DNA of 64,000 nt from Hypomesus transpacificus (Eukaryota > Chordata > Actinopteri > Osmeriformes > Osmeridae): contig NC_061064.1 in assembly GCF_021917145.1 (NCBI RefSeq), positions 5,108,098 through 5,172,097 on the forward strand, written 5' to 3'. The position numbers were made by a program, and so were the translations under genes. Positions 19,544 to 63,043 of this stretch are shown one piece after another; positions within the stretch are counted from its first letter, which is position 1; every line of letters starts with the position of its first letter. The notes below the pieces were generated by a model. It made no database searches. It saw only the letters and a program-made list of their open reading frames with translations, and was not told the DNA's origin.

Positions 19544-22500
19544 CTGAGTCAGTTGGATGAGATGGTTTCATTCTCAAAGTATTGGGTTAAAATAAAATTA
19601 GGCATTAGGAATGACAAAGTCAAAAGAAACAAAGCAAACTGTAATAATATGAATTGTACTTTGTATACCTATTTGTAAAGATGCCCAGGAAGTCTTTAAA
19701 TCAGGATCCATTTGTGGCAAGCAGCACTGTCACAATATAATGACCCTACATTCCTGAACATAGCATTGTGTTTTGAGCTGCTATTTTATATACTTTGGAA
19801 TTAATGAGAGATAAGTGAGGCAAAGGGAGATTTGACATCAAGTAGCCTAATTTAGTGGCTGCTGAGGATTCAAAAAAAGTGTCTTTGATTCAGATATTCT
19901 TTTGCTGAAGTTGAAAGTCCAGAGATCTGAGGATGATGTCAGAATATCTTGCCACCAGTGATGGAAGCACAGTATGGGCAGATCAATGCTCCAAAACTGT
20001 TCGGTCATTATAATCGTCTCAGGGAAGAGCATTTGAAGAGCATTGCTTACCATCCAGCCTCCTACACACACTAATATATTTAGACTATGTGTCTTTCATA
20101 GAAGGTAGTCTCATCATGCTGCGAATGGCATGGGAAAATACAATCGCTTTAGGTCCTTTAGGCTTCAATATCTCCCACTCCTCATGTTCCATGCGGCTGG
20201 TAGAAATCACACGTACACTCTTCAAAAGCAGAATTCAGATACTCTCCTCAGTGACAACTCTTTCGGTGAATACAGCTGTGCACTGACAGCTGATTTCATT
20301 AGTGTGAAGGTGACGCTACACTAATTGTCGAATCACTTTAACTTATCTTGATAACCAATCGTTGCATGACAGCTTACACAAACCCTCAGCTGTCACGATG
20401 TTAGCTACACACTACCATGGTGGGGGTGTGCTCTACTCAACCTTGGTGTTGTCACCTAGATGCCTAGCGTTGATCCTGATGACATTCAATACAAGCTCAC
20501 ATGCACTTCAGTATTGATTCATAGCCCCAGGCCGGCCCACACTGCCCCCAGCCTCTGGATGTTATTGCTGAGTTCATACAGTATGTTCGCACGTGCGTGC
20601 GTCTGTGTGCGTACATGCATTTGTGCATGCGCATGGAGCCTGCCAGCTCTTGGTGAGGGAAAATAAATGTTTGCTCGGAATGATTGTGTTTGTATGGGAA
20701 TACATGTTCTCTTCAGCATTCACTGTGCTACCAATAGTCTGAGAGAGGACAGGTTGAGATAAAAAAATGTGTTTGTATCTTAATGACCAGTTTTCACACT
20801 TGGATAGGAAATGTTTCATTTCAGAATGGTGCTCTTGCACAAGTGGAATATGTATAATATATAATTGTACACAGAATTGATCTAATATGTAAACAGTTGA
20901 TTCAAATCCAAGTCTTTTAAATTGTCGTATGGTAGCAAATGCTGACTACATAAGTCTTAGTATCCATGTATTTAGCTGTTTCACTGGTGTCAGGGCACAG
21001 TGTGATATCACATCAGCAAGGAATCACAGGTGCAGAAATGGGAGAACATGCCCATGAATGAACAGTATTGTTGATTACAGGAATGCAGAGTCGAAATAGT
21101 TTAGAGCTAAGCGCGTCGTTGCCATAGAGCTACCAGTGTCATTGTTTCCTAGGTCCTTGAAGCACATTTAGCATTTCAATCCCTTGAGGAAAGGATGAGA
21201 AGTTTACTCACTAAGGACATACAATAAGCTGGGGAATTTGGAATCAATTTTGATTAACAATAGCCGGTTATATTTAAGAGTTACACAGTGCAGGGTATCA
21301 GACTACAGCACCATGCATAATCCCCTATCCCAACAATGCTCTGTTGGTGCAATTGAACCAGACGTTAGACGAATTTCCACTCTTTCACACTAATTGACAT
21401 TTTTACAGATTTATTCCTTACACTTTTATTTGCAGTTTTATCAATTTATAGGTACGACGGCAGATTATGAATATTCTGGTTTAGGTCGGACACCGACACC
21501 ACTCCCAAAACAGCACACACATGCCCAGAACCTCGTCTCTCTCCCTATCTCTTTCTCTCTTTCTGTCTACAAGTGTGTTCCCTCTGTTGCCATGGCAACG
21601 GTCGTTAAGCATGGTCGTGGGAGTTCAGAGTCATCGAGCACAAGTCTGTTTCTTTGTCTGTCTGTGGCCTGCTTTGTCACATCTACAAGGGCTGATAATC
21701 AGTCCCAGAGCAACAGAGGAAACAGGCAGATCCCAGTCAAACTACTGTAAAAGTGTCTGACGAAAAGATGTTAACCTAATGAATGATGTTCATGTGGCTT
21801 TTTTTTGGTGCTATTTACTGTTTTCTCATCTCTTTCATCTGACAGAACATGTGGTCATGTGTGCAGTCCGGCCATTCTGCTTCTGTGTAAGAATGCAGTC
21901 ATGTGAATGTAAAGGAATATATCAGTTGAAGATTTAAGATTATATATACAATATTGTTTTGTAGTCAGGAGGCGAGAACTCGCTTGTATTTCTTGGTTTG
22001 GTGCACCTGACATGATTCCTTGTAACCTGTGAGATCAGCCTTTTCGAGGGTGAATGGATGTCTGGAGGTGTGTTCTCTTCACCGACAGATTCCCTTCAAC
22101 AGAAATGGCAGTGCACGACTCGTCAAGAGATTTATGTCAGTTTTAGTCCAATTAAAATAGCTCATGTGATTTCCAGTGTCACATTGTTCATTTGGTTGAC
22201 AGGTTCTGAGTATTTCTGTCTTGTCTTGATCTTTGCTATAGTTATCATCTGGTACAGTGAAGCTGGTATGGTAGTTACTCATCCATAATGTGTTCAGTTG
22301 ACGGCGTTTGTGTTTCATTCCAAATATTCAGTTCCAGAGATGTGTATCTGTAGATTGATTCAGCCTCTCCCATACGGTAATACAGTACCTCTGATCTCCT
22401 CTGTTCTAATCTTTCAAAGGACAGCAAGGTCACACACACACACAGACATCCAAAACACCTTCTGTAAGCACAATTCAAGATTTAGTTTGACCAATGTCAG

Positions 22501-27730: not shown

Positions 27731-29100
27731 TTCCACTGCTGGTCAGAGACATGTACTGAATGTGGCGTGGAAGGCAAAATCAATGTCATGTTGTGGTTCC
27801 AGCAATCAACCAGCTCTGAGATCATTAGATGAGTTTGATTGTTGAGTTTGTTTATCGCTTGTGTTTCACTCCGGGGAGCCCAGCAATCTCGTGCAGTGGT
27901 TCAGGCACCCTTTTGTGGTGTCACAAAAGCCTTTACTCACAGGAAATCAGCTCAAGTCAAACCTACACTTGATATAATTCAACAATACTCTAACAACGTC
28001 AACAGCAAAGAAATAATCACAGGTTTAGATACATTAATATTTACCACCATAGCCCTAACTCTTATGAAGGTACATCAGAAAACATACCACATCTTCTGGC
28101 TGGTTGCACCTGTGGAGTCCACTAGCAGGTCATGTGTTGTGCCTCAGCGGATTTGAAAGCTTCGTGTCATCACCTCTCGTCTGCAGTGAACCTTTAGATA
28201 GCCTTTGCCTTCATGATATCTGCTTCAGGCCGGGGGATTTTGTGACAGATGTAGTCCACATTCACAGTTTGCAAATCAACCCAACATTATGGACTCCAAA
28301 CACTCCTTTTCAGCCTGCTGTCACAGACCCATCGCCTTAGATCATATGCAAACAGAGGAATTTTGTTGTGTTTCAGATTGCTTTTTCATGAGGCGATGAA
28401 AGGACCGCTTGCAGCCTTTCCTGACCTATTTTTCTGGTGTGTAGTGGCTCCACTGGGGGCAGAGGGATCCTTTGCAAATGTTTTTTCTGCAGAGCTGACC
28501 CTGTGAGCCAGATCCTCGTATGGTGAATCGAACTGACTTTTCATGGTGGCACAAAGATGGTTCATTAGAAGGCAGCTTTTCTACTCCCTGGGCCAGCTCG
28601 TCAAGGCTCTGGCTGTGAGGGGGGGATGCACTGTCTTGTATTGTATGAAGCATTTTAGGAAGTCAGTGATCACCCTCACTCCCTTGAGTGTTGACTCTCT
28701 GGAGACGTCTTTCAGCAAGTGTGAAGGTTGCAACTTGTTGTCTTTGAACTGTTAATAAACTGCTAATAACATCCATGAATAAATAAAAATGTCCTCCATC
28801 CTTGATCATACCATAGACTCAGTTCAACTCAACAGCTGAGTGTTTCGATTAATCTCTATGTTCTGACAAATGACTTTACTGTTGGGTACACGGTGAACTT
28901 AACCTCCTTCGTACCAAGCGTTACAATACAGCGGCAGGGAGAAATTAGCACAAACCCACTTCCTGTATTTTAGCAAAGGGTTTTCAAGTTAACGTCTTAA
29001 TTTGAGCTTTTGCATTTAGTGGCGTTCAGTCTGACTTTGAAGCACCCTCTGTGATGTGTGCCACCGCAGGTAATGACGTGGCTCAGGTCCGACCCCGGAG

Positions 29101-30948
29101 ATGCCGAAGAGACGGGACATATTGGCCATCGTGTTGATTGTGTTGCCTTGGACTCTACTGATCACCGTCTGGCACCAGAGTACCATCGCCCCCCTTCTGG
29201 CTGCTCGAAAGGGTAATGGTCCTTGTTGGCAGCTTCTTGTGAGAATTCATGGTTTCACAAAATAGTGCTTCCCAGATCCAGACTATTTTATGAAAATAAT
29301 TTTTGGGAACATTCTCACCAATTGCATCTTGCCAACCGTGCAATTCTTTCAGATACCGAAAATGTAGAACTGCAGTTTTGAATATCTCAAATTCCAACAA
29401 ACCAATAGCTGAGCCATGATGGGTGGAGAACTTAATATCAAATCTATTTGGGGGCAAGCCTTCAGTCAATGATGGATTTCTTATATTTACATTTGATATA
29501 GCAGCTAAACTCATTTGACCCGTCTATAAGAGAAACATGATGAAGAATAGGTGGGTTTTGCAGCAATTACATCATGTTCTTCCTTGCCTTAGACGACAGA
29601 CATGAGAGTCGGCGAGACTCCAGGAACACCTTCGGCCTTAAGGAGCCCTGCTCCATGGAGAACCGAGACATCGTGGAAGTTGTACGCACAGAGTACGTCT
29701 ACAGCCGGCCTCCGCCCTGGTCCGACGTGCTGCCCACCATCCACATCATCACCCCCACCTACAGCCGACCCGTCCAGAAAGCGGAGCTCACCCGGCTGGC
29801 CAACACCTTCCTCCACGTCCCCAACCTGCACTGGATCCTGGTGGAGGACTCCCAGAGGAGGACGCCCCTGGTCACCCGGCTGCTCCGGGACACGGGGCTC
29901 AACTACACCCACCTCAACGTGGAGACCCCCAGGAACTATAAGTTGCGCGGGGACATGAGGGACCCGCGGATCCCCCGGGGAACCATGCAGAGGAACCTGG
30001 CGCTGCGGTGGCTCCGGGAGACGTTCAGCGTAAATAGCAGTCAACCTGGCATTGTTTACTTTGCGGACGACGACAACACCTACAGCCTGGAGCTGTTTGA
30101 GGAGGTGAGGTGTCGCGCTCATTCCCGCTCATTATCACCAACCACTAGATAGGCGCTATTTGTACTTTCCATTGAAGTGCTAAATGAAGAAAATGGAAAC
30201 ATGGAAATGTCGTTCTCAGTGACGTAGCTCATGCTCTCTGTCTCCATTCTAGATGCGTTCGACCAAAAAGGTGTCGGTGTGGCCTGTGGCCTTCGTGGGA
30301 GGCCTGCGCTACGAGTCCCCTAAAGTCAACACCCTGGGGAAAGTGTATGGTTGGAAAACTGTATTTGATCCACACCGGCCCTTTGCCATCGACATGGCTG
30401 GCTTTGCGGTCAACCTGCAGCTTATTCTGTATAAGCCTCAGGCCTACTTCAAGTTGCGAGGAGTTAAGGGAGGCTACCAGGAGAGCAGCTTACTGAAGGA
30501 ACTGGTCACACTCAATGACCTGGAGCCCAAGGCTGCTAATTGCACTAAGGTGAGGATTGTTTTTTTGGGGTGTTAATTTTGAGAAGCAACAATATACAGG
30601 CATTTCACAATCTTTCTTGATTAGTTTAGTATAGAGACTGGGAGCTTATGACTCTGGGCACATGCAGTACACTTGTAACGTACTATATGCAGCCTTAAAA
30701 TAACCTTTCCTGAAACTTAACAGCTGTAGTGTTCAGAATGGAGTGCAAATTCAATTTAAGCCTAACACATCTCTAACTTGCTCTCAGAGTGCGAGTGTAA
30801 TAGTAACTGAGAAATCGATTTAAGCAGAACAATCCTCTAATGTCCTCTCTGTTTTGAGCAGGTACTTGTATGGCACACGAGGACAGAGAAGCCTGTTCTG
30901 GTGAATGAAGGCAAGAAAGGATTCACTGACTCTAACGTAGAGATATGA
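29101..30948 (+). CDS. b3gat1: Galactosylgalactosylxylosylprotein 3-beta-glucuronosyltransferase 1 (GlcAT-P)
   Basis: Golgi type II enzyme that transfers glucuronic acid from UDP-GlcA to terminal N-acetyllactosamine, the key step of the HNK-1 epitope on neural glycoproteins. Coding exons: 29101-29212, 29593-30104, 30253-30549, 30862-30948; phases agree and give 335 aa (human 334). Residues 1-6 (MPKRRD) are cytosolic and about 7-25 form the signal anchor. The variable stem runs to about 60; the GT43 domain starts at DIVEVVRTEYVY. The metal-binding DDD is at 196-198 and the catalytic-base Glu in GGYQES at 285. It ends in the family's TEKPVLVNEGKKGFTD tail. The ATG lies in an exon whose acceptor is at about 29070, so untranslated exons exist upstream. 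It converges with glb1l2 2 kb downstream, as in human. Duplicate (a/b) status is undetermined. Confidence 0.97.
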
Positions 30949-32921: not shown

Positions 32922-35900
32922 TCACTGGATGTCCACAGCCATGCCCAGGTCAGGAACATCCTCAAAATGGACCTTATAGTCTGCCTCCTGCTCTTCAAAC
33001 ATGATGACCTGGGAGACAGCCCACAAAGGTCAACACCAGAATATCAAAGTGACAGGAGTAGAAGAATGTGCAGGGTTGAAAGGTTGGAGAAGTGCATATG
33101 ATAGTAGAATGTGTAGTAGTAATACCTCTACACATTTGTTAAAGATTCCACTAGCTTTATATTGTTTCATTAATAACTGTGTTCATGTACATTTGACAAT
33201 AACTTTGAACCTGAACTACCTGGTTGACACCACTGTTGAGGAAAGGCCCAGGGAGGTAGAGAGTTTGCTGGGGGCCGATGGACCAGTACCGACCCAGGTT
33301 CAGTCCATTAACAAATAACACACCCTTTCCCCAGCCCTAAAGACATTAAAATCATTCATAAGATTAAATAACTATCAAACTGCCACTTCACTTATTTATA
33401 ATTGACCTGAATATTCAACTAAATTGGTACACAGGCAGTGTAGTGTAGTCAGCCTAGACAATACATAGTAGAGCTGGTTTGTATTTACTCACCGGAAGCT
33501 TAACAAAGGTGTCGCTAGGATAGCCATATGTAAACAATCTGCCCATGAAAAACCCTGGGAAGCTGGGAATGTGGGGAAGAGATTTCCATGGCGCCAGGTA
33601 GAGGCTGAAATGTATAAAGTAGAAGGTGTTAGGTGTCTGCTGCATGCAGTGCTTTGGAACAGAAAGTGACAGCTGAAAAAGTGCAAACCTGTCAATGAAA
33701 CTTTCTTTCATTTCCAAACTGTAGATTGTAAAATCCCGCAATGGAACATTGTTCAAGAAAATGTCTCCTACTAGACCTACAAAACAAAATAAAAAATGGT
33801 TGAATTCTCAAAATAAACTAATTTATCACAATTTCTATGATTGTGTGATATATAATTGGTTTTCACCTTTGCGTTGATTATCAAGAGCTTTCCCATTTTG
33901 CACTCGTCCACAGTTCTCTACCAGCAGACTTAATATCCTTTTCCCCTGCAGGGTGAACATGACTTTAGTATTGGGCTGAGTTTTTATCAGTTCAACCATT
34001 CATCTCTGCCATTAAATTAGATATTGACTTCGAAAAACTCATATCAGATTTTAAAGCAGATTCCACAGCCCACCTTGTTGTCGTACCTTACCATCAGGAA
34101 CTGCTAGCTCGAGACTTTGGTGCTTAAAGATGCCAATGTAGTGCCTGTCCACAAACACCTAGACATAAATATCCCACCTGTCAATAACCTGCCCAGGGGA
34201 TTCCTGTTCTTCTCAGTTATCAGAATAGGTTTCTTGACACTTACCAGAGCTCTGTCACGCACATGGTCTTCAGACTTGAGTAGACCTCCACTTGTGATAG
34301 TTGTCTCATACAGGACGTAGCCGTAGGACTGGCCATTCCCATTGTTGAGCGGAAGATTCTCCATGTTTACAGGCGTTGGGGATTTAAAAGGCTTGGGGAC
34401 AAGAAAGGGATGCACCGATCTTTATTGCCCTCCAGAGGAATAATCTGCTAACACGGAGCATGCGTGCCCATCCACGTATGCCCCTACACGCACACATAAA
34501 CATACACACACATACCTCTTCCGTGAAGCTCAATGCGTCCCACAAGGACAGATGGTGGTACATGATGGCTGGCTCGTAGGCCTCCTTCCAGCGCAGGGCT
34601 GGCATGTCTGGGAGCTTTTCAACTCCTGCAGGTAAAGGTGAAAAGAGTCACCAGGCAACAGGGTCTAAACAGGGCCTCCTCTCTCTCCGATTCTCATCCT
34701 AGTCCTTGACACAGGCGGCGTTCCTATTTACCTCTGTTATGGACTTACTGTGGTAGCGGCTGAAGAGTTCCCTTAGGAGGTGATACTTTGGAGTGTATTC
34801 CCCTGCTTCCGACAGGGGAGCATCATAATCTAGAAGAGGACAACGACGAAAGGTTCACTTTGGGTGAGTTAATGAACACTGCCACTTAGTGGTGACTTGA
34901 TGGAATGGAATATTACCGGATGGAAAACAGAGGGACAGGGTGACCCACCGTAGCTTGTGATCAAGGCCTTGTAGGAGGGATTGGCCAGCGCTCCACTCTG
35001 GAAGCCAAAGCTTGTCCCTCCATGGAACATGTACAGGTTGACGGACATGCCTCGTCTCAGCATTTCCCGCACCGACGACACCATGTCTGCACAACAGTGA
35101 CATCGTCAAAGCTAGCTAGATAGACAATTAACTTAGCGTCACACGCTACATACCAGCAGATTTGAATCATGCAAGGTATCTTACCCTCAGGGGCGAGAAC
35201 ATGATGAAGATCTCCCCATACGTCAAACCAACCGGTCCAGTACTCCATCACCATCACGGGGCTGTTAGGCTGTCATCAATGACAACATAAACAACCAAAG
35301 GCATTCTCTTTGACTCCAGGGAGCTGTCAATCATAAATGCTTATTGATTGCATATGCGACTAGTGTTGGAAATCCCCAACATGATTTGTGCATACCTGAA
35401 CAGCATTCAGATATTCTATGTTTCCCTGATTTAATTTCCGAAGATTTACAGCTCGAAGAGCTGGAAACATAATAAAACATGATGATGTGTCTTTGATCAT
35501 GATATACAGTGTGCCAAAATGATACTTAAAATATGAGTAAACCTCACACATTGTTATGATGATCTGTGAATATATTAACGTTATTTATACAATACCTCCC
35601 GTTACACCCCCTGCCTGTAAGCCCTGGGGGGTGTCTGATGTAAGAAGGAGCTCACTGATCCCTCTTGACAGAATTGCCTTTTTTAAAGGAATGCAGACTT
35701 TAGGCACTAAAGACTTCACCAACAAATCATAACCATAACGTGTGTGGGTTTGAATGTGCTTGTATACAGTATGTCTGCGTTTACCTCCTTGATGAAAGGC
35801 ATGTAACTGTCATCGCCTTTGAAGGATCCATATTTACTCTCTAATTGAACTGCAATGATGGGACCTCCCTTTTTGAACTTTGAACAAAATAAGTGATTTA

Positions 35901-38073
35901 CAGGGCTAAGTTTACAATTCGGCCATGACAACAACTGCAAAGGAGATCTGTGGTTAGCGAAATATACCTGTAGGGGAACCATCTTTGGAATGAGCTTGTC
36001 AAAGAATGTGTTGACTGCGTCAATGAATCCTGGGTAAGTAGTCCTCAACCTCATGTTACCATCCCGGAGAAGCCAACTAGAGAGAAGGAGACATAGTGTA
36101 AGGGTACAAGGATAAAGTAAGTACTGTGTATGTATTGAAAACTATTTGTTCAAAAAATACCAAATGTAAGTAGTTCACACACACAGAGATGGGTTTTGTT
36201 GCGTAATGTGAATCATAACCCCCACCAGTCCCACCTCTTGTCTCTATCCCGCTTTCCTTCCCTAGAGCATCCAACTTGTTTATAATGGTTCCCATGGACA
36301 CACATTACAATTAAAATAGAACGTTGTGCAGCGAGTTCAAGTGGCCTTTGTGTGAACAGATTCACAAACCCCCTAATTGTGTTAACTAAGGAATGCTGCA
36401 AGGATAAGATACTCCACTCTAAAGCACAGAACATTTGGGATTTTATCCCATACACAATACACACCATATTCTCTGTAAAGAGTTACAGATTATTGATTGT
36501 TTTATAAGACACATTACCTTGGCAGCCCTCCTAGGTCTAACTCTGAGGAACTGTAAGGGCCTGGACATAGAATCACCCACAGTCCCAGATCTGCAGCCAG
36601 GTTTATATAGGCTCTGGGAACACAAGAAAGTGACATGCAAACGTACAACAAAACATACACTGTATTACACAGTCAGTGAGGCCAACTATTTACAGATGCA
36701 CAGTAAAGCAGAGATTGTCTCCAAATGGGAAATGCCCTTGATGCATAAGCCACTCTTGAAATATTGTTAATTACAAACTACATACACATCATATTTCCAA
36801 CTGTTTGTGGTGCGCAACCTTTACTTAGCAACTACTCCTGTCTCCTGAGGATCCTCACAGTTATTGCATCTCAAACTGTTGTTGTGAAAATGTTGCGGTC
36901 GTCAGGTGAGGGGCATCTGCTACCTCCTCCCCACAGTATTGTAGCCCAATAAATGAAAATGCCTGATACCTAGTCTCAGAAGGGGCTGCTCTAACTGCAC
37001 TTTGTACCAGGTATTCACATCAGGGGACTGAGGAGAGAGCAGCAGGTGTTTGCCTTTGCACCCAACAGATACAGCTGCAGCAAATTTGCATTCAGTGTTG
37101 TTTCATTTGCCTGATTCATTTGTGGTGGTGGAGAGGGTGGGGGGGGAGGTGGGGGGGGGGGGGTTATCAGAGTGTGACAAAAGCAGAAAGCTTTCCTTAC
37201 TCTATGTCCAAATCTGTTTGAAACTGGAAAACGCCTCTCGCCGGCTCATGTAAACTCCAGGGTACATATCTATAGAGGAGAGACGGGTCGCTTTTAACGT
37301 TCAACAAGTGGAATGATGATTGAGACATTAGTGAGGGTTTGAAAATATGTGTAGACAGAATACGTACGTGGTGAGTGTGTTGATGCCACACGCCCTCATC
37401 TTCATCATCCGGTCCCTCCAATAGGCTCTGGGCACCCGGAAATAGTGAATGGACCCCCCCAGGATGCGGAAGGGTTCGCCCTCCAGAGTGAACTGGGATG
37501 AGTTGGCACGCAAGCCAACCTTCCTACTCATTGTCCTTCCCCCAGACAGGAGACTGGAAAATGGGTTGTAATAATGATTTGCTTCATACACATTCAAGTA
37601 AAGAACTCACATACATTCAAGTCAAATGGAATTGACAGTAAAGGATTGGAATTCCTGACGGAGCATGTTCAGTATAGGCTATTGTGAATGGGTGACACAG
37701 GCTGTTTGTATATTTGGGATGAAAATACTGGTATGAGGATAGGCTATGCGTCACATCACACTTAACTTTTTTCACGTGGACCGCATTTACAACCAGTTCT
37801 TATTCAATATAAAGCTCACAGATTTTTCCCGCGAGATCAATACGGTTATAAAAACAGACAATTGATTTGCATGTTTCACCCATTTAACGCTGCCAACTTC
37901 ACAATTACAACATTACAACATAAACACTGTTTACGAGAATTCAGATGAAAGAAGTTTTAGAAAACTATGGGATCGACTTACCCGATGCACCGGTACATGA
38001 GAAAAGCAAAGATGCTCAAACAGAGAAGTGCATAACGTCTTTTATGGGTATTCCTTATTCTTAGAACAAACAT
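32922..38073 (-). CDS. glb1l2: Beta-galactosidase-1-like protein 2, active site substituted
   Basis: GH35 protein with 19 minus-strand coding exons: 38073-37982, 37553-37368, 37269-37201, 36613-36518, 36076-35968, 35877-35785, 35677-35596, 35460-35396, 35269-35185, 35086-34949, 34829-34749, 34625-34516, 34391-34245, 34158-34087, 33945-33867, 33776-33689, 33604-33493, 33336-33220, 33008-32922. All phases agree, giving 635 aa (human 636). Residues about 14-28 form a signal/anchor helix; the GH35 barrel starts near [17 protein letters not shown], followed by C-terminal beta domains (LGRYW-IGPQ). The nucleophile Glu in [10 protein letters not shown] (273) is present. The acid/base Asn-Glu pair of the family's VENEYGSY is Ser198-Lys199 here (QLESKYGSF); RPGPYICSE is CPGPYSSSE, and HGGTNFGF is HGGTSFGF. 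Normal galactosidase activity is therefore unlikely, yet no exon is broken. A glb1l3-type name is the alternative. Confidence 0.95.
37137..37163. repeat. Poly-G tract in glb1l2 intron
   Basis: Runs of 7 to 13 G interrupted by single A/T bases, within the intron between coding exons 3 and 4 of glb1l2. It lies on the strand opposite to the transcript, so the pre-mRNA carries C runs. Confidence 0.85.
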
Positions 38074-38860: not shown

Positions 38861-38997
38861 GTGAAAGAATAACTTCTCTAAATGCATCTTTATTAGTCTG
38901 CTTTCAATTTAAACAATCTACAGTGGTGTGAATCAATGCCGTTGGGGTTAAAAAGGTAACACTACCTCATTTTAAACAATAAATAACAGTCAAGGGG

Positions 38998-41043: not shown

Positions 41044-43286
<2,243 letters not shown>

Positions 43287-58800: not shown

Positions 58801-59294
58801 TTTAGCAGACGCTCTTATCCAGAGCGACTTACAGTAAGTACAGGGACATTCCCCCCGAAGCAAGTAGGGTGAAGTGCCTTGCCCAAGGACACAACGTCAG
58901 TTGGCACGGCAGGGAATCGATCCGGCAACCTTCTGATTACTAGCCAGACTCCCTCACCGCTCAGCCATCTGACTCCCGCTAACACATTTCTCATACTTAT
59001 TTAATATTTGTTCTTAGTGTCAAGAAAACCATGGAGGGTGAAGCAAGTGCTACTGGCTCGAGTAGGAAGAACACCATAAAGGACCTCAAGTTCCTGACAC
59101 CAGTGCGCCGTTCCTGTCGCATCCAACGCAAGTCGTCTCGTCTGCCTGGCATGCTGACCGACCACGACCCCTGTGTGTCGTCGCTGGCTGAACTGGTTCA
59201 ACTGGATGATGATGCCAATGCCTACATTTACAGGAAGAACCCAGCTCTCCTGGAGGAGCTTCCAGACCATGCAAAAGACCTTGGGAAGATCTGA
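55843..59294 (+). CDS. Cytoskeleton-associated protein 2 family (CKAP2/CKAP2L), spindle protein
   Basis: Microtubule-associated protein of mitotic spindle and poles. Coding exons: 55843-55881, 56001-56785, 56912-57269, 57526-57586, 57696-57969, 59018-59294. Phases agree and give 597 aa (human CKAP2 683, CKAP2L 745). KEN boxes at 16-18 and 436-438 predict APC/C-dependent destruction. Residues 30-265 are basic, Lys/Pro/Ser-rich and disordered, as in microtubule-binding regions of the family. A signature ERK-LAEWLASKGKTLKRPPM lies at about 272-294. The conserved C-terminus (about 530-590) reads FLTPVRRS-RI, LPGMLTDHDPCVSSL, then AYIYRKNPAL. The helical block that lies between these two signatures in the human proteins is largely missing; only VVNLCSVLEAM and an acidic stretch remain. 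The last intron (57970-59017) carries LTR-like and SINE insertions. I cannot separate CKAP2 from CKAP2L. Confidence 0.88.
58050..58779 (-). mobile_element. LTR-like insertion in last intron of the CKAP2-type gene
   Basis: Read on the minus strand it starts with TGTTACGTCCCCAGTG, a TG start typical of LTRs. Further in is a TATA-like word (CATATAAGCC at about 58565) with GC-rich DNA upstream, as in an LTR promoter. No gag-pol frame is present, so a solo LTR is the best guess. The far end and target duplication are not resolved, and the left boundary is approximate. Confidence 0.4.
58780..58976 (-). mobile_element. tRNA-derived SINE
   Basis: On the minus strand it starts with a tRNA-like head: the A box TGGCTGAGCGG (about 58958-58968) and the B box GGATCGATTCC (58913-58923) are about 40 bp apart. 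It continues through CTTGGGCAAGGCACTTCACC and ends in a tail containing AAGTCGCTCTGGATAAGAGC and GTCTGCTAAATGACTAAATG. A variant of this tail occurs at 10979. It abuts the LTR-like insertion directly. Confidence 0.8.
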
Positions 59295-60332: not shown

Positions 60333-63043
60333 ATGGCGAACAACTGTGCTTTTTCCAGTTGCACAAGTAACAACTGCAGTCTGCCCAGCCTTCCCCCCCT
60401 CTTCAGGTTCCCAAGAAACAGCGAAAGGTAACAACAAGTTAGCTATATATCTAGCTAGTTAGCCTAATACTAATAATAATTGTCTAGCCTTTTAGCTAGT
60501 TAGCTGGTAGTAATACTAGATACTACATCTTAGGTAACTAACTACATGGACATAATAATAGGTAAGCCGGCAAGGGCTTTATGTTATTTCCGGGGCCTTA
60601 CACCACTTATGTAGTGAGCCTACCCAGCTCTGACTATTGCATTATCTGTCTAATGTCCAATGCTGTTGTTTCTCCCCTTCTCAGATGCAAGAAGTGGATT
60701 GAAAACTGCAATCGTATTGATCTTGATGACAAAACCCCAGACGAGTTGTACAGACAGCACAGACTTTGTGCAAAACACTTCGAAGATTCAGTGATGGAAA
60801 CAACTGTAAGTGAAATCATTCTCAATATAAATATTAAACTATTATAATATTATTAAACTATTAAACTGCTATCTTTATTCAGACTGCTGGAGTAGTCAAA
60901 ATACTATGATTAACTTAGCTGCTTACTTGTTTTTCAGCTTCACAACACCGCATTGAAGGAGGATGCTATACCAACCATATTTGATTCATCAAGCCAGCCC
61001 ACTAACCCCACAAGTGGACAGTGCAAGCGGAAGGGAGAAGTAAGGATTTGCTGCATTAAACTTCTAAATTCATACACTTATACTTCAAACACTTTGTCTG
61101 TTTAATATTTTAAATGTTTTATTTTCCAGATTCAAGATGGTCCACAGGACAGTAAAGTGAAGAAAGGTGAGTTTTAGATGTGTAATTTACCTGATTGTCA
61201 ACTTCACTGTAAATACCAAAAGGCACTGTATTTTGTTCTGCCTTGTCTTCCAGAGGACTTAACAGAGAAAACCAAAGATGACTCCCAAATAACTATGGAA
61301 GAGACAGACCCGAGAGATATCCTAAAATCAATTTTTGAAGTTCTTCTGGTGCTAAGCAAACAAAATATTCCCTTGAACAGGCATGCTGTAGATGTACAGG
61401 AAAGCCTCACTCTGAGTAATGTCCAGGCATTGTTAGAATATAGAATGAGTGTTGGGAATCAAGTGTTGACTCCTGGAAAAGAGCTCTGCTCCTCCACACA
61501 ACTGAGTCAAATGTTGGAGGTGTGTGAGAATGGCGTTCGTGATGAGTTCCTGCAGGAGGTCAGAGAAAGTCGCTTCTTCTCACTTGTCACAGATGATTTG
61601 GTGGACATAGAAGAGCAATGCCACCTCCCTGTTTTTTTGCGATTTGTGGACCAGTCTAACTGCTTGCGGGAGGAGTTTGCCGGACTGCTTCCTTTTCAGG
61701 GAGATGAGGAGACCCTAACAGAGCAACTGCTGTCTATGGTAACTGACAAGTGGGGCTTGAATATGGAAAACTGCAGAGGGCAAGCCCACTTGTGCTCTGG
61801 TGTGCATGCCAGCAAAATGAAAGCCATCTCTACCAGGTTAACAGAGAAGTATCCTCTGATACTGCATTCGACATTGTCCACATTTGCTTTGAACACCTTT
61901 CTGGTAAATAGTATGTCACTGTCAGGGCCACAGATTGTCATGTCTACTTTTAAGAAGATTGAGTCCTTTTTCAAGGACGCCCCTTCACTGAAATTAGAGT
62001 TAGAAAATGCCATCTCGATATTCTATCAAGGCAGGGAAGAGAAAACCAATGAGTTGAAAGAGGCTTGTCGCACCAGCTGGACATTAAGGCACGATGCGTT
62101 TGAGGTGGCGGTTGATATCATAGAATCTCTTTTGCTCTGTGTGGATAGTGTTCATGACAATGAAGACATGAGGTGGAGTGATGAAGTCACTCACAACGCA
62201 TTAGAAATATCTACAGCACTGGCTGATTTTGAGTTCATTATAGCTTTGGTTGTGCTGAAAAACACCCTGTCATTCACCCGTGCCTTTGGTAAGAACTTGC
62301 AAGGGCAAGCAACAGACACCTACTTTGCTGCAAATAATTTGACAGCGGTGTTTCACTCGCTGAATGAGGTCTCTGACAACATTGATGTGTATCACGAGTT
62401 CTGGTTTGAGGAAGCCATCAACCTAGCATCTGCAATGGAGATCCAGGTTAAGGTTCCCAGGCTGTACCTGAGAAAGCATCGCTCTGAGTCTGGAACCGAG
62501 GTGCAGCCAGAGAATTACTACAAGGAACACCTGTCTGTCCCCGTCGTGACCCATGTCCTCAACGAAATGAAGGATCTGTTTACTGAAAGTCACGTCAAGG
62601 CCATGAAATGTCTGTTGCTGGTCCCTGCCGTCATGGGTCAACTGAAGTTCAACGCGTCCGAGGAAAACATGGATGTGTTTAAAAATGACCTTCAGAATGC
62701 AGAGACGCTCCCTGCAGAGCTACACTGCTGGTGGGTGAAGTGGAAGCACAGGGTCAAGGATGTCACCACGCTGCCCTCCAGTGTCCCTGAAACCCTGCTG
62801 CTGGCTGAAGTGAAATTCTTCCCCAATGTGCTTGCCTTCCTGAAGGTGCTTGCCACCTTGCCGTTTTTGACGGCTGAGAGCAGTTGTGATGCCGCCCGCA
62901 AACGGCTTAAACTGTACGTGGAAAATACACCTGGCCACCACAGATCCAAGAGTATTATCTTTTTGAACATGCATTATAATGCTACACACAACTTAGACTT
63001 CATTGTAGATACCTACGTGGAGAAGTACCCTGAGAAAGAATGA
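60333..63043 (+). CDS. thap12: THAP domain-containing protein 12 (PRKRIR / p52rIPK)
   Basis: Transposase-derived nuclear protein, known in human as a repressor of the PKR inhibitor p58IPK and so linked to PKR/eIF2alpha stress control. Coding exons: 60333-60427, 60685-60805, 60938-61039, 61130-61166, 61254-63043. Phases agree and give 714 aa (human 761). The THAP zinc finger (residues 1-86) shows Cys5 and Cys10, FRFP, CKKW, DLDDKTPDEL, LCAKHFE and the closing AIPTIFD. A short charged linker follows. Exon 5 carries the DUF4371 and hAT-transposase-like body (VTDDLVDIEEQCHLPVFLRF; FTRAFGKNLQGQATDTYF; YHEFWFEEA; SVMGQLKFN-type segment; KFFPNV). The last 100 residues correspond to the hAT dimerisation region. 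The ATG is the first in frame and gives the family's M-N-CA start. Polyadenylation is likely at AATAAA near 63327. Confidence 0.96.

Follow-up and report, generated by a model that had tools for sequence, protein, structure and literature searches.

Mammalian GLB1L2 and GLB1L3 combine the GH35 barrel with two beta domains, and to our knowledge their functions are hardly known. GLB1L2 presumably lies beside b3gat1 in human and other mammals. The PROSITE pattern PS01182, quoted as G-G-P-[LIVM](2)-x(2)-Q-x-E-N-E-[FY], is reported for mouse Glb1, Glb1l2, and Glb1l3 (PMC3103743). A triple deletion of Glb1l2, Glb1l3, and Gm1110 in mice is reported to leave male fecundity normal (PMC6688925). The galactose contacts of human lysosomal GLB1, as described from its crystal structure, are seven (PMC6631223). 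The Asn next to the acid/base residue is described as holding the 2-OH of the sugar, and Glu129 as tethering the 4-OH and 6-OH (PMC7504770).

The known non-enzyme in GH35 is the elastin-binding protein, a GLB1 splice form described as lacking exons 3, 4, and 6 through skipping and as reading exon 5 in another frame (PMC2631023). GLB1 intron 5 is reported to end just before Asn187-Glu188 (PMC9325892), so that skipping of exon 6 removes the acid/base pair. Among other glycosidase families, Klotho (GH1) and YKL-39 (GH18) are described as pseudoglycosidases acting as part of a receptor or as a glycan binder (PMC7828330). Among the matches listed in the open-licence literature, no full-length GH35 gene whose acid/base residue has been substituted was found, and searches for thioglycoligase acid/base mutants and for GLB1 R121S gave no paper with all terms. 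Judged by its sequence, the gene described here (W) is a real and well-supported candidate pseudoenzyme.

The window gene and its altered pocket

The window is the whole stretch of 64,000 nucleotides of Hypomesus transpacificus that was analysed (NC_061064.1, positions 5,108,098 to 5,172,097). The features of W and its neighbour are as follows, in window positions.

32922..38073, minus strand: coding span of the glb1l2-like gene W from start to stop codon, 19 exons, 635 aa (exon-by-exon model)
37982..38073, minus strand: exon 1, basic N-terminus and a hydrophobic stretch at about aa 14-33, hydropathy maximum at aa 17
37201..37269, minus strand: exon 3, YVPWS, with Tyr94 (GLB1 Y83) kept and N98S (GLB1 N87) at 37256-37254
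36518..36613, minus strand: exon 4, pocket loop, with R132C (36567-36565), Ser137 (36552-36550), C138S (36549-36547), A139S, E140 kept (36543-36541), and W141L (36540-36538)
35785..35877, minus strand: exon 6, the acid/base exon, with N198S and E199K, 93 nt, phase 0 at both ends
35185..35269, minus strand: exon 9, MEYWTGWFD, with the nucleophile Glu273 kept (GAG, 35245-35243)
34749..34829, minus strand: exon 11, with Tyr340 kept (34827-34825; GLB1 Y333)
29077..30945, plus strand: exon pieces (open-frame spans) of the presumed b3gat1, tail-to-tail neighbour of W, four pieces matching contig C15

The 19 exons, intact splice sites, and 635 aa of the earlier sequence-only reading were reproduced by our exon-by-exon model, in which all introns have GT donors and AG acceptors (18/18) and the only stop codon is the terminal one. 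By inspection, the hydrophobic stretch in exon 1 is likely a signal anchor or signal peptide. W scored 340.2 bits against Pfam Glyco_hydro_35 (PF01301, cut-off 27) over profile positions 1-318 of 319. It also has both downstream beta domains of GLB1-type members (BetaGal_ABD_1, 75.5 bits; BetaGal_gal-bd, 72.4 bits), a layout common to mammalian GLB1L2 and GLB1L3. The neighbouring gene, which we take to be b3gat1, matched Pfam Glyco_transf_43 (124.8 bits for 29574-30149). Its exon pieces end about 2 kb from W, tail-to-tail, which is a GLB1L2-like position.

Exon 6 had been read as QLESKYGSF with Ser198-Lys199 at the Asn-Glu position of GH35, and both statements hold: the exact minus-strand exon of W retranslates to this peptide, and S-K faces N-E in 5/5 printed PDB alignments (4mad, 8fa5, and, for human GLB1, three chains of the 3wez/3thc/3wf3 type). 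The codons are GAG for E197, AGT for S198 (35838-35836), and AAA for K199 (35835-35833). Their proposed origin by single-base changes from AAT GAA is sound, as two related sequences of the same genome, described below, read GAA AAT GAA TAT (copy A) and GAG AAT GAG TAT (gene B). The PS01182 pattern is broken in W only at the N and the E, whereas mouse Glb1l2 and Glb1l3 are reported with the consensus intact (PMC3103743). Human lysosomal GLB1 (3thc, 386.7 bits) belongs to the same family, and the equivalents of its nucleophile, Tyr83, Glu129, and Tyr333 are kept in W, but its acid/base Glu188 and Asn187 are replaced by Lys and Ser. Retention of the nucleophile Glu273 (GLB1 E268 equivalent), also claimed before, was seen in both the W model and the alignment.

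In the window, no alternative exon coding ENEYG was found at up to one mismatch (0 matches), and at two mismatches, where chance predicts 4.0 matches, there were 3, including the exon 6 site itself. Within the 437-Mb assembly, the only full-length match of W is W itself, the 11 other matches listed are all short, and the exon 6 peptide has hits at W, B, and A, three in all; thus no second allele, haplotig, or near-identical copy of W was seen there.

The changes in the pocket go beyond the pair first noticed. W also carries N98S, R132C, C138S, A139S, and W141L at near-invariant GH35 columns, and its Ser137 is Ile in B and human GLB1. Of the seven galactose contacts of GLB1, W retains four (Y94, E140, E273, and Y340) and changes three, namely A128 (A139S, a main-chain contact), N187 (N198S), and E188 (E199K). 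In mammalian GLB1L2 and GLB1L3, positions 139 and 141 are presumably Ser and Met, and the two changes of W there may therefore not be losses.

We compared W and B with 20 outgroups: 16 plasmid-encoded GH35 proteins, one protein from GTDB, and three PDB chains. The 16 were chosen by hand to form a diverse set, out of the 60 records listed among 72 matching plasmid records. Across the 17 bacterial proteins, 92 columns are at least 94% conserved. W keeps 82 of these and departs at N98S, R132C, C138S, A139S, W141L, N198S, E199K, P333A, N491Q, and W517F. Among the 48 columns invariant in all 20 outgroups, W loses six (R132C, C138S, A139S, W141L, N198S, and E199K, all in segments 132-141 and 198-199) and B loses none. 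When one exception is allowed, 84 columns remain, with nine lost by W versus one by B. Each outgroup, when left out in turn, lost 0-7 strict columns, and a galactose contact was lost only in L007 (Y333). A scan of GTDB gave one relative, and six peptide patterns had no match in the viral contigs scanned.

Paralogues and evolutionary rates

The control genome was the window's own 437-Mb assembly, a single assembly, in which GH35 exons occur at at least five loci: W, two genes on contig C15, and one each on C22 and C29. The exon 6 segment reads VENEYGSY at the four other loci and LESKYGSF in W alone among the five found. The C22 and C29 genes resemble GLB1 more than W, and one of them is presumed to be GLB1L. 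Contig C15 carries a duplicated block, consisting of a copy of b3gat1 (protein identity 87-89% over the two main exon pieces), then copy A on the minus strand, then gene B on the plus strand, with A and B head-to-head. Copy A has the same place and orientation relative to b3gat1 as W has in the window.

Gene B is open over 17 exons; its first (5') exon was not found. It is identical to W in 382 of 603 aligned residues and resembles it in exon lengths, which are equal from exon 4 on except for exons 12 and 19. B differs from W in that all seven pocket residues are intact (N98, R132, C138, A139, W141, N198, and E199, with the loop reading RPGPYICAEW) and in the fusion of exons 2 and 3. The fused exon (L027 1898-2152) has 255 nt = 186 + 69, equal to exons 2 and 3 of W; either B has lost an intron or W has gained one.

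Copy A is a local example of decay: at least five of its exons carry in-frame stops, and 10 residues are deleted over the RPGPYICAEW loop, although ENEYG is kept. The frame of W is open. It spans C15:10577847-10588250 (L036, L026), and its matched exons fall into patches 88-97% identical to B and others at 71-81%. The near-identical patches reach 97% over 255 nt (exons 2-3) and 97% over 116 nt (exon 17). Exon 18 is 93% identical to B in its first 74 nt, exon 14 is 92% identical over 74 nt, exon 4 is 91% identical in its first 45 nt, and exons 12 and 13 align with gaps at 88%. This pattern suggests gene conversion between the inverted pair. For the kinship of A, a tree was built on 283 columns with exons 2-3, 12-14, and 17 left out and exon 18 kept though its start is B-like. 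The tree groups A with W (support 89.5/89). The AU test gave p values of 0.156 and 0.055 for two alternatives and rejected neither, so we call A only the positional counterpart of W. We do not take A as a sure ohnologue of W, since it is a mosaic and the other groupings stand unrejected.

Between W and B, dN is 0.26-0.27 and dS 1.19-2.31 by three methods; the resulting dN/dS of 0.11-0.22 is pairwise, saturated, and not branch-specific, and the LWL85 omega bootstrap of 0.17-0.27 is likewise pairwise. The dS of the b3gat1 pair (0.69-1.37 over 357 codons, with exon ends trimmed inexactly) points to a split between W and B no later than the block duplication.

For a polarised comparison of unique changes, we separated pocket segments of 33 residues, set after the losses were known, from the roughly 570 aligned residues outside; with its distant outgroups, this comparison is blind to constraint change in the last few million years. 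With human GLB1 as the outgroup, each of the two genes has 29 unique changes outside the pocket, whereas inside it W has 9 and B 0. Over the 20 outgroups the median outside is 30.5:26.5 for W:B, none giving a chi-square above 3.84, and W has more changes than B with 15, fewer with three, and the same number with two. Inside the pocket, W has 7-9 versus 0-1 in B. Among the eight outgroups printed, two give a whole-protein chi-square above 3.84 (L001, 6.37; L015, 4.25), and W is therefore somewhat faster than B overall, chiefly through the pocket. A segment-free comparison gave eight near-invariant columns lost by W alone and none by B alone (binomial p = 0.008).

Neutral evolution was simulated with substitutions and without indels, which would lower the stop-free chances further. 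Conditioned on 8-10 pocket changes, the frame stayed stop-free in 0.13-0.15% of cases, with a median of 170-171 changes outside the pocket. The stop-free chance is 14.5% for two pocket changes and 3.75%, 1.85%, and 0.9% for four, five, and six.

Explanations for the altered pocket

Our main reading, to which we give a probability of about 0.7, is that W is a teleost GLB1L2-type GH35 gene turned into a retained pseudo-beta-galactosidase, its body kept for a structural or partner-binding role. Like a pseudoglycosidase, W has a missing catalytic residue and an intact reading frame. Because the catalytic residue is lost and the rest is preserved about as well as in the intact sister B, W was most likely kept for a job needing the shape of the protein and not its chemistry. 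The sequence-only reading had proposed a retained pseudoenzyme, perhaps a lectin-like galactoside binder. Its first part is supported by the intact 19-exon frame, a rate outside the pocket not significantly different from that of B, and the neutral simulations. This rate and the simulations also favour purifying selection on W after catalysis was lost, although two of the eight printed outgroups make W significantly faster over the whole protein. The second part is not supported, as N198S, E199K, and A139S are joined by loop changes (R132C, Ser137, C138S, and W141L).

The proton donor and its Asn partner have been replaced by Lys and Ser, and the loop behind the pocket is altered too. In the mechanism that we propose, Lys199, unlike Glu, would be unable to protonate the leaving group; it probably pairs with Glu273, and W would have lost normal hydrolysis of natural galactosides. 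Cleavage of beta-galactosides would then be left to the intact paralogue B and the two GLB1-like genes, and the TIM-barrel and beta-domain body of W would persist as a structural or partner-binding protein.

A galactoside lectin, in which the pocket of W binds a galactose-type sugar uncut as YKL-39 binds chitooligosaccharides, seems unlikely to us. Glycan-binding pseudoglycosidases are reported (PMC7828330), the galactose-binding C-terminal domain of W scores above its cut-off, and the four contacts kept include the carboxylate that tethers the 4-OH and 6-OH; A128, a main-chain contact, could survive as Ser. However, the Asn that holds the 2-OH is now Ser, and changes have also occurred at R132, C138, A139, and W141, four columns from which neither B nor any of the 20 outgroups departs. 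The loop supporting the pocket is altered, whereas in a lectin that binds galactose one would expect it to be conserved. Since the sugar-holding and supporting residues are changing together, a scaffold role independent of the pocket is favoured over the lectin. An equally doubtful idea is that W is on its way to loss, catalysis having gone recently and a stop codon yet to appear. The decay of copy A beside B means that one copy of the family was dispensable in this lineage, and given the normal male fecundity of the triple-deletion mice (PMC6688925), weak constraint on W would not surprise. Unique changes are also somewhat more frequent in W than in B with most outgroups, and if only 2-4 of the pocket changes postdate the loss, a stop-free frame has a chance of 3.75-14.5%. 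If all 8-10 were neutral, though, the simulations predict a stop-free frame in only 0.13-0.15% and about 170 changes outside the pocket, where the observed rate of W does not differ significantly from that of B.

That W remains catalytic, through a relocated acid/base or by another reaction (for example on activated substrates, or as a transglycosidase), we consider quite improbable. Glu273 and much of the barrel are kept, and USP53 and USP54, labelled pseudoenzymes by their sequence, are reported to have proved active; but ESKYG offers no new carboxylate beside the acid/base position, and several conserved neighbours are gone. Least probable, with only a very slight chance, is a sequencing or assembly error at codons 198-199. 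These codons come from one assembly, but the losses are spread over exons 3, 4, and 6, both codons differ from copy A by single transitions, and the frame is otherwise open.

As for the older duty that a retained pseudoenzyme might serve, knock-down of the Foxj1-induced zebrafish transcript Dr.81747 (GLB1L2) is reported to shorten the motile cilia of kidney tubules (PMC4199137). This morpholino result, a weak kind of evidence, is an outside hint that fish GLB1L2, in one paralogue or another, may have a role in cells with motile cilia. After duplication of the b3gat1-glb1l2 block, W might have dropped sugar cleavage altogether while retaining an earlier role that needs no catalysis, such as one in motile cilia; we regard this as a long shot. 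If it were true, the enzymatic and structural roles of GLB1L2 would be split into two genes of one fish. A motile-cilium promoter motif beside W found no support, none being above chance. The exact TGTTTRTTT nearest to the start codon (38073) lies 3.7 kb off at 41733, and the nearest X-box match, at 38947, has two mismatches, with 62 such matches in the window versus 72 expected, which is the chance level.

The retained pseudoenzyme reading sets W beside the elastin-binding protein, which is likewise a GH35-derived product without the acid/base residue; that form arises by exon skipping, whereas W keeps whole exons with substituted codons. Klotho and YKL-39 are alike in keeping a glycosidase fold after catalysis was lost, as predicted for W, but they belong to other GH families and have known partners and ligands. 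If the reading is right, W would be a full-length, codon-level GH35 pseudoenzyme next to those of GH1 (Klotho) and GH18 (chitinase-like), and would show that a GLB1L2-type protein does something needing no hydrolysis. Being full-length, seemingly constrained, and without the acid/base residue, beside an intact B and a dying A, W would offer a ready-made separation of function.

Three other features of the window were observed. At 21586-21599 lies a perfect palindromic X-box-like sequence, GTTGCCATGGCAAC, the sole zero-mismatch match in the window. A dispersed repeat occupies 58801-59001, its peptides matching many places in the approximately 127 kb of C15 examined. A single open frame of 621 aa at 61178-63043, with a weak, below-cut-off match to DUF4371, perhaps derives from a transposon-type protein.
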